Shown here: piece after piece, positions 46,619 to 48,327 of the stretch
How the letters are laid out: every line of letters starts with the position of its first letter
Position numbering within the stretch: position 1 is the stretch's first letter
Made by a program: the position numbers and the translations under genes
Assembly (NCBI RefSeq): GCF_018474015.1
Contig: NZ_JAHCSG010000002.1
Span: 310,001-374,000, forward strand
DNA from: Williamsia sp. CHRR-6
Lineage (GTDB): Bacteria > Actinomycetota > Actinomycetes > Mycobacteriales > Mycobacteriaceae
DNA: 64,000 bases
Direction: 5' to 3'
The notes under the pieces: generated by a model
Databases searched by the model: none
Told to the model about the DNA's origin: nothing
Seen by the model: the letters and a program-made list of their open reading frames with translations, nothing else

Positions 46619-46691
46619 GGGGCTATAGCGCAGTTGGTAGCGCGTCTCGTTCGCATCGAGAAGGTCAGGGGTTCGATTCCCCTTAGCTCCA
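46619..46691 (+). tRNA. tRNA-Ala (anticodon CGC)
   Basis: 73 bases folding into a full cloverleaf: 7-bp acceptor stem with the G3:U70 pair that marks alanine tRNAs, D arm with GCGC stem, anticodon arm TCTCG/CGAGA with loop TTCGCAT (anticodon CGC at loop positions 3-5), and T arm AGGGG-TTCGATT-CCCCT. CCA is not encoded. Confidence 0.97.
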
Positions 46692-46912
46692 CTCTCAGGC
46701 CACTGCGTTTGCTTGTCGAGCGAGCAGTCCGGCGATTCAGGTTTTGCGTTCTTCCGAGATGTCTTCGACGCCAGCGGACATGCTCGTCGACATGGGCTGA
46801 CCCCCGAACGGACCGCCAACCGCGTTCCGCGGAACGCGGTTCAGGCGGATTGTCATAGGGTGCCGTTAGGCTGCGGCTAGTTGGATCGTCGCAGTTCACG
46901 GGGGGTATTTCA
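46692..46912. other. Gap between tRNA-Ala and the HNH gene
   Basis: 221 bp without a gene. Its right half carries the first palindrome and a probable promoter region; GGGGGG at 46900-46905 is the ribosome-binding site of the HNH gene. Confidence 0.6.
46818..46841. repeat. Perfect 24-bp palindrome upstream of the HNH gene
   Basis: The core CCGCGTTCCGCGGAACGCGG (46820-46839) is a perfect palindrome, extended by AA/TT to 24 bp. The same 20-bp core recurs immediately after the HNH stop. It lies 72 bp before the gene's start. It could be an end of a mobile unit, an operator or part of a terminator. Confidence 0.9.
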
Positions 46913-48307
46913 GTGTCGGTCACCGCGTTGCCAGTGTCACCGTCGGATCTGTTTGATCAGGCGGCGCCGGAGGGGTTGAGTGATCGGGAGTTGACTGATC
47001 GGGTGGTCGGGCATGCCACTCAGATCGCGGCGTTGACGGCCCGGTTCCTGGATCTGTTGCGTGTGTTTGATGAGCGGGGGGTGTGGACGGGGGCTGGTAT
47101 CCGCTCGTGCGCGCACTGGCTGTCGTGGAAGACCGGGTTGTCGTTGCGGACTGCGCAGGATCATCTGCGGATCGCTCACGCACTGACCGAGCTACCACTA
47201 CTGCGTGCGGCGTTCGCGCAGGGCCGCCTGTCGTATTCGAAGGTTCGGGCGGTCACCCGGGTTGCCACCCCCGACCGGGAAACCGAACTGCTGACTGTGG
47301 CGATCTCGGCGACCGCCGCCCAGGTGGAGCGGGTGGTCCGTTCCATCGCCCACATCGACCGCGCCCAGGACGAGTACACGGCCGGGCGGGTCGACTCCTC
47401 AGCCCGCTGGCGGTGGTGTGATGACGGGACCCTGGCGGTGACGATGCGACTGTCCCCGGTCGATGGGGCCCGGTTCCTGGCCGGGGTGGTGCGCAGCGAG
47501 TACGAACGGACCCGCACCACCGGCGACCCCGATGTCCCCATCCCCACCACCACCCGCGACGGCGACGGCGAGGAGGTGGTGGTGGCGGCGAAACCGGATC
47601 TGTGGCGCCATGTTCCCGCCAACATCGCTGATGCGGTGATCGTGATGGCTGATGCCGCCCGCACCGCGATCGCGATGCCGGAGTTCGCGCCCGGCGCCGA
47701 AATCGTCATCCACACCGACAGCGCCACCGATTCCAGCGTCGATGCGCATCTCGATGATGGACCTCCTCTCACGGCCGCCGAGGTAGATGCAGCATCCTGC
47801 GGTGGTTCCACCCGCACCATCGGCCACGCGCCACGCCCGACGAGGGGTGCCCGGCGTGGGGTGGCGTTGACGTTCGGGCGTAAACGCCGTCTCCCGACGC
47901 ATGCGTTGCTGCGGGTGGTGTTCGAACGTGACCGTGGTTGCCGGCATCCGGTGTGTGGCCGTACCCGACACCTACACGCCCACCATGTGCGGTTCTGGCG
48001 TGACGGTGGCACCACCGACCCCGACAACCTGATCATGCTGTGTTCCACCCACCACCAGGCACTGCACCACGGGGTGTTCACCATCGAAGCTCGCGGCAAC
48101 CAACAATTCAGTTTCCACCGCCCCGACGGCACCCTCATCGACACCGCACCCACACTCGCGGTGACCGGAAACTGGTTGCCCAACACCACACTTCATCCCA
48201 CCGCGATCACACCCATCGAACCCGGACCCCTCGACCTGGCCTACACCATCGAAGTCCTCTACGGCATCTGGGACCACACACCATCACGCCACCCGATCGC
48301 CGCCTGA
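46913..48307 (+). CDS. DUF222-HNH endonuclease (13E12 repeat family)
   Basis: 464 residues from GTG 46913. The N-terminal DUF222 domain is helical (ATQIAALTARFLDLLRVFDE, RSCAHWLSWKTGLSLRTAQD, LSYSKVRAVTRVA). The C-terminal HNH nuclease has FERDRGCRHPVCGRTRHLHAHH and later NLIMLCSTHHQALHHG, with paired cysteines and the catalytic His-His, all intact (residues about 335-385). The family is multi-copy in mycobacteria and relatives and is suspected to be mobile; its target is unknown. A palindrome begins at the base after its stop codon. Confidence 0.92.
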   Translation: MSVTALPVSPSDLFDQAAPEGLSDRELTDRVVGHATQIAALTARFLDLLRVFDERGVWTGAGIRSCAHWLSWKTGLSLRTAQDHLRIAHALTELPLLRAAFAQGRLSYSKVRAVTRVATPDRETELLTVAISATAAQVERVVRSIAHIDRAQDEYTAGRVDSSARWRWCDDGTLAVTMRLSPVDGARFLAGVVRSEYERTRTTGDPDVPIPTTTRDGDGEEVVVAAKPDLWRHVPANIADAVIVMADAARTAIAMPEFAPGAEIVIHTDSATDSSVDAHLDDGPPLTAAEVDAASCGGSTRTIGHAPRPTRGARRGVALTFGRKRRLPTHALLRVVFERDRGCRHPVCGRTRHLHAHHVRFWRDGGTTDPDNLIMLCSTHHQALHHGVFTIEARGNQQFSFHRPDGTLIDTAPTLAVTGNWLPNTTLHPTAITPIEPGPLDLAYTIEVLYGIWDHTPSRHPIAA

Positions 48308-48327
48308 CCGCGTTCCGCGGAACGCGG
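48308..48327. repeat. Perfect 20-bp palindrome directly after the HNH stop codon
   Basis: Identical to the palindrome core at 46820-46839 and starts at the base after the TGA at 48305-48307. As a hairpin it has no loop larger than the centre bases, so it is a poor classical terminator but a good cleavage or binding site for a dimeric protein. Confidence 0.9.

Follow-up and report, generated by a model that had tools for sequence, protein, structure and literature searches.

A palindrome-bordered DUF222/HNH nuclease gene of Williamsia points to a possible, so far unrecognised type of mobile gene cassette

Genes for DUF222/HNH proteins occur in many copies in actinobacteria, and no known role for them was found in the accessible parts of the literature. 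A free-standing HNH homing gene splits, and so destroys, its target site. Integron cassettes form arrays of unrelated genes, defence genes among them, with one type of recombination site (attC). REP sequences are short, recurring palindromes that accompany and flank a single dedicated enzyme gene, RAYT/TnpA-REP (together, REPtrons), which encodes a tyrosine (HuH) transposase. According to the portions of the sources available, REP copies usually number more than 100 per genome (PMC2817692) and have one end marked by a GTAG or CGTC tag (PMC3733652). The REP13E12 (13E12) repeat family of mycobacteria, compared here by description, has the same DUF222/HNH pair and is repeated in the genome, like the element reported below. 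The partial texts at hand name REP13E12 as a repetitive element grouped with HNH/DUF222 (PMC10589994) and as a hot spot of gene conversion (PMC13061034); unlike for the present element, they mention neither palindrome borders nor cassettes.

The window analysed here is a stretch of 64,000 nucleotides from the 4.0-Mb genome of Williamsia sp. CHRR-6 (G000). An exact-match scan placed two copies of the 20-bp perfect palindrome CCGCGTTCCGCGGAACGCGG, neither assigned a strand, at 46,820-46,839 and 48,308-48,327, on either side of a DUF222/HNH gene, as the first-pass annotation had reported. The left copy is close to the gene, with 73 bases before the GTG start rather than the 74 claimed; the right copy does begin on the base 3' of the stop codon, the gene ending at 48,307. 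A palindrome scan extended the left copy to a perfect 24 bp (46,818-46,841), and the 14 perfect palindromes of at least 14 bp in the window include none longer than these two (24 and 20 bp). No further copy with up to three mismatches was found within the 64-kb window. Dinucleotide shuffles (n = 100) gave 0.07 matches on average and never two, by which a chance origin of the pair was rejected, as the annotation had argued. A tRNA-Ala(CGC) gene lies at 46,619-46,692, its end 127 bases 5' of the left palindrome; tRNA genes are frequent neighbours of integrated elements. The Rfam scan gave a good match for tRNA alone, with two other matches listed far below the cut-offs, so that a known RNA element was rejected as the identity of the palindrome.

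The only gene between the two palindromes (46,913-48,307, plus strand) runs from a GTG start to a TGA stop and encodes 464 amino acids. At E <= 0.001, the Pfam domains of the protein were DUF222 (residues 34-141; E = 9.5e-7, 28.9 bits, cut-off 24.4), HNH (residues 347-386; E = 4.8e-7, 30.3 bits, cut-off 21.4) and HNH_2 alone. Residues His357, His358 and His381 are conserved in all 69 aligned homologues and Asn372 in 68 of them; we take these four residues to be catalytic. A sequence search of solved structures returned two matches, both with E above 0.3. Plasmid and phage records contained one plasmid relative at 39% identity and one phage relative covering 33%, and viral contigs contained none, which disfavours a phage or plasmid gene. 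Each of the eight genus genomes has three to nine DUF222/HNH matches.

Two close members of this gene and one distant match are present in the genome of the window itself. At 94% protein identity, the two close members do not reflect a recent duplication. The genome also contains six exact copies of the 20-mer, arranged as three pairs, and one more with three mismatches. Two of the pairs bracket the only two close HNH gene copies, and the third brackets a 372-aa gene 8 kb from the second pair. The 20-mer is thus not common away from HNH genes in this genome, which would have refuted the annotation's reading: four of six copies flank close HNH genes and the remaining two belong to the same array as one of these genes. 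The two HNH units are alike from 16 bp 5' of the left palindrome through the end of the right palindrome, and their sequences diverge beyond this stretch. The 16-bp flank, CCGAACGGACCGCCAA (46,804-46,819, plus strand), recurs left of the paralogous unit.

The second unit is part of a palindrome-divided array of 11 kb with four palindromes (contig C4; locus L011, 3,349-14,365). Writing P for the palindrome, the array reads: response regulator, P, 372-aa gene, P, TIR gene with HsdM, HsdS, DUF3800 and HsdR genes, P, DUF222/HNH gene, P, 318-aa gene. The TIR protein matched ThsB in PADLOC at 5e-62, and searches of Pfam, PADLOC and NCBIfam, at the limits set, found nothing for the 372-aa protein. 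This array is likely a defence island. Because the 16-bp flank, with one change, also precedes the second palindrome of the array, that palindrome may be the remnant of an earlier HNH unit.

We then compared 75 homologue loci from the genus and the family (39-100% identity to the window protein), which represent the higher-scoring places and part of the weaker ones; flanks are short in three of them (L067, L074, L159). Counting palindromes of at least 12 bp with the core TCCGCGGA within 300 bp of the gene, one was present upstream in 51 of 75 loci, downstream in 24, on both sides in 21 and on at least one side in 54. Palindromes of any kind of at least 14 bp occurred upstream in 56/75 and downstream in 24/75; in Markov shuffles the rate was about 4%. 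In 22 of the 24 loci with a downstream copy, the centre of that copy falls 7-11 bases 3' of the stop. The annotation had named palindromes at both ends of many family members as support for its idea, and this holds for part of the family: the downstream copy is missing at 51 of the 75 loci, including all nine with a homologue below 45% identity (L162, L164-L169, L171, L172).

The palindrome arms differ by clade (GCGTTCC, GCGCTCC, GTGTTCC), and both arms vary jointly. In the distant clade (below 45% identity), the palindrome is CGTCCCCGCGGGGACG, with arms that are mostly CGTCCCC, and is found upstream only. A protein tree was built from 69 proteins, leaving out the columns of residues 200-230, where the internal palindrome is commonest; the six other proteins were left out of the alignment, three for inner stops and three for length or frame. 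On this tree, arm types defined by two bases required four changes for four states, and those defined by four bases seven changes for six states. All label groups together required 22 changes against 39.5 in shuffles, with 0 of 200 shuffles as low, although near-copies among the 69 proteins favour such clustering. As controls, we used 17 distant relatives from the same genus, matched chiefly over the HNH part (of three scanned with Pfam, all have DUF222 and two have HNH). None of the 17 has a CCGCGG-centred palindrome of at least 14 bp, and other palindromes of that length occur upstream in 2/17 and downstream in 0/17. This covariation strongly supports the palindrome as the cognate site of the DUF222/HNH protein. 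The symmetric changes of the arms, with no loop, suggest a site that a dimer reads as double-stranded DNA, not a hairpin.

A PafBC-type DNA-damage promoter motif (TGTCAT-N10-TA-N3-T) lies at 46,851-46,872 on the plus strand. Its TGTCAT departs at one base from the forms printed in the accessible part of the source, where the consensus of DNA-damage promoters is TGTCGG, TGTCAG or TGTCAC-10N-TA-3N-T (PMC8151990). The pattern TGTC[AG][GT]-N9..11-TA-N3-T is present 5' of the gene in 69 of 75 loci, compared with 43 of 1,500 random windows from the same loci, and the upstream palindromes are positioned 5' of it. What is shared with the PafBC (RecA-NDp) regulon is this motif, an ordinary regulatory input; it is also present in 6 of the 17 distant relatives and is therefore not specific to the palindrome-bearing group.

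In a comparison across sister species, three sites (C, D and E) have one palindrome in one species and two with an insert in another. At site D, 3' of an EAL/DICT gene, G005 has a single palindrome, and G007 has the left flank of G005, P, the HNH gene, P and the right flank of G005, the joints being no more than 6 bases away from the palindrome. The same flanks are found in G001 with no palindrome, and in the other five genomes the best match of the flank gene has 59-62% identity and is followed by different sequence. At site C, 3' of a PPK2 gene, there is no palindrome in G000 and G002, one in G007 (GCGTTCCGCGGAGCGC), and two enclosing an HNH gene in G005 and G001. The flank on one side stops about 20 bp short of the palindrome in G005; in G001 the HNH gene has an inner stop, and an extra 578-aa gene lies past the second palindrome, its far end without a palindrome. 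Different sequence follows the PPK2 gene in G003, G004 and G006. At site E, 3' of a periplasmic-binding-protein gene, G006 has one palindrome and G003 has two around a 1.6-kb insert with amidase and 161-aa genes and no nuclease; the G003/G006 alignments overlap in the palindrome alone. No palindrome was found in the 110 bases 3' of the flank gene in the other six genomes.

The insert is thus an HNH gene at two of these sites and a set of unrelated genes at the third. Similar arrangements are found in genus g9, where G359 carries P, ion-channel and Na+/H+-antiporter genes, P, HNH gene, P, and G219 carries M78-peptidase and HTH genes between two palindromes 1.4 kb apart, with no such HNH gene at E <= 1e-60. 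The filled sites agree with the annotation's idea of a nuclease that spreads its own gene through the palindromes, whereas the bordered inserts that lack a nuclease do not fit it in that form. Its comparison of empty and filled sites was answered at the three places above, but not for the window copy: orthologues of the ABM gene downstream of the unit exist in four of the seven sister genomes, the sequence upstream of them differs, and no clean empty site was found this way. Overall, three sites and one array support, at few places, the reading of the palindromes as borders of inserts with a joint function.

The exact 20-mer is present in one of the eight genus genomes. Its shorter form GCGYTCCGCGGARCGC is present in all eight, with 4-9 copies each and 50 in total (two of these, at contig ends in G006 with identical flanks, may be one place), and the reversed control pattern had zero copies. 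For 30 of the 50, the nearest other copy is no more than 10 kb away (random mean 1.2, maximum 10 in 2,000 trials). When copies in or beside close HNH genes were removed, this was true of 8 of 28 (random mean 0.42, none of 5,000 trials as high). These eight copies make up four pairs, and a single homologous locus, site B, accounts for three of the pairs. At site B the variable segments end close to the palindromes but not at them, and the site was therefore dropped as a cassette hot spot.

Among 401 family genomes, the gene was found in 48 (a stricter set that includes G191 and G304, whose genes are in two pieces) and GYGTTCCGCGGAACRC in 55. Both were present in 40 genomes, the palindrome alone in 15, the gene alone in 8 and neither in 338, in a count that includes copies beside the gene itself and with statistics that ignore phylogeny. 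Six of the eight genomes with the gene alone have a C-type or mixed palindrome instead, and the reversed control of GYGTTCCGCGGAACRC was found in one genome (G206). Of 394 class genomes, 18 contain the 16-mer GCGTTCCGCGGAACGC, in up to 20 copies, and one contains its reversed control. In a genome collection, the exact 20-mer was found in 15 stretches, from Pseudonocardia, Frankia and relatives, Gordonia rhizosphera, a Pseudonocardiaceae MAG and a record titled Acidobacteriaceae; a related HNH gene is present in three of these stretches. The record titled Acidobacteriaceae (L028; compare G206 contig C241, 6,437 bases) carries an HNH gene of this group and is probably misnamed or a mixed bin. 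Four of the 15 stretches contain clusters of 3-6 palindrome copies spaced 33-111 bp; these REP-like clusters are from relatives of Pseudonocardia and Frankia (L014, 6,525-7,011; L019, 2,491-2,659; L023, 6,190-6,258; L024, 3,345-3,465). Some solitary copies fall inside other called genes and may be background. In two g9 genomes (L180, 4,590; L184, 4,461), a palindrome with the same core lies about 80 bases 5' of a 375-aa gene, the product of which matches nitronate monooxygenase in L180; this could be a regulatory site apart from HNH genes.

Exact repeats, covariation, single and filled sites, the array and the promoter motif are features of the sequences, and from them we infer binding by a dimer, cutting, joining and a direction of gain rather than loss. 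The nuclease would be induced by DNA damage through its PafBC-type promoter. An HNH homodimer would recognise the two-fold symmetric palindrome and cut near its CCGCGG centre. A palindrome-ended cassette would then leave its site, or be copied from it, and end joining or short-homology repair would insert it into another cut palindrome, restoring a palindrome on both sides. Gene blocks caught between two palindromes would ride along, giving arrays of the form P-A-P-B-P-HNH-P. In this reading, to which we give a probability of about 0.5, the HNH protein has the palindrome as its cognate site, and small cassettes that move by cutting and rejoining are joined at the same palindrome. Several observations count against it: the downstream copy that most loci lack; the window copy without a clean empty site; the ends that miss the palindromes at site B and, at site C, by about 20 bp in G005 and by a palindrome-less side in G001; the concentration of three of the four non-HNH pairs of the genus at one locus; the palindromes inside the gene, which would expose it to its own enzyme; and the 94% identity of the two units in the window's genome. 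Single-palindrome sites could also be remnants of loss.

The main rival, which we find doubtful but worth serious weight, is an autoregulatory operator. By binding the palindromes that precede, follow and lie within its own gene, the protein would control that gene's expression; it would move nothing, ordinary recombination between repeats having produced the bordered inserts. The position of the copies suits such a role, as the upstream copy is close to the promoter motif and is the best conserved (CCGCGG-centred in 60 of 75 loci and in nine of nine below 45% identity), the downstream copy is frequently missing, and a palindrome with the TCCGCGGA core lies within the HNH gene at 37 of 75 loci. 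An operator does not account for borders around inserts that lack the gene (site E, G219, and the 372-aa gene and TIR/restriction-modification block of the array), for solitary palindromes at sites C, D and E, or for the conserved HNH catalytic residues.

The internal palindromes also bear on a less probable alternative, in which palindromes within and beside copies of the gene family are cut by the nuclease that the family encodes, and repair by gene conversion spreads or homogenises the gene, cassettes being by-products. The internal palindromes are mostly in the interdomain linker at residues 210-222, and in four loci at residues 289 and 402, with examples at about 6,150 in L098 and about 5,720 and 6,069 in L191. 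Three reading frames are used (VPRN or APRS, RSAE, FRGT), so that what recurs is a DNA word and not one peptide. Frequent gene conversion, 87 events in one species, is given for REP13E12 repeats in the part of the source available (PMC13061034). Conversion leaves the inserts without the gene unexplained. The N halves are usually more similar than the C halves, and a test for half-swaps at the internal palindrome among paralogues of the same genome gave no clear case; domain swapping there led nowhere. A transcription terminator or other local hairpin element unlinked to the nuclease is very improbable. Several copies do lie directly 3' of a stop codon, but the palindrome has no T run and drew no call from a terminator scan, upstream copies are 5' of the promoter motif, arm type tracks the nuclease tree and distant relatives lack the palindrome.

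Set against the known systems, the palindrome-bordered cassette resembles each in part. The likeness to REP and RAYT noted by the annotation, which extends to clustered copies in some genomes, stands as an analogy and not as membership: the palindrome here is perfect, its enzyme is DUF222/HNH with no transposase match in Pfam, the genus genomes have 4-9 copies of GCGYTCCGCGGARCGC rather than more than 100, and no constant GTAG or CGTC end tag was seen by eye in the flanks of the genus copies. As in a homing endonuclease gene, a nuclease gene possibly spreads through its own target, but the definition fails, as the site D insert keeps an intact palindrome on each side. Arrays of unrelated genes separated by one type of site, with defence genes included, recall integrons; the site here is a perfect palindrome instead of attC, the candidate enzyme, an HNH nuclease, is itself encoded within a cassette, and no tyrosine integrase was found among the proteins scanned with Pfam at the loci. 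In the accessible parts of a mainly open-access literature we found no description of palindrome borders for the DUF222/HNH family. The gene family is known; what appears to be new is the site, together with its covariation and the cassette borders.

The interpretation first proposed for this locus is thus partly supported, and the palindrome-bordered nuclease gene may belong to a type of mobile gene cassette that has gone unrecognised. More tentatively, damage-induced HNH nucleases may form a new class of mobile element, each serving inside the cell as a restriction enzyme for its own perfect palindrome. Cassettes carrying the nucleases themselves, defence systems or other genes would be cut out at palindromes and pasted into any other one, with no transposase, no integrase and no duplication of the target, building palindrome-jointed cassette arrays in several actinobacterial groups. 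The covarying cognate site provides a directly testable substrate for the HNH enzyme. If the palindromes are cassette joints, defence systems and other genes would move without a known recombinase, and the palindrome would be a search key for hidden cassettes.
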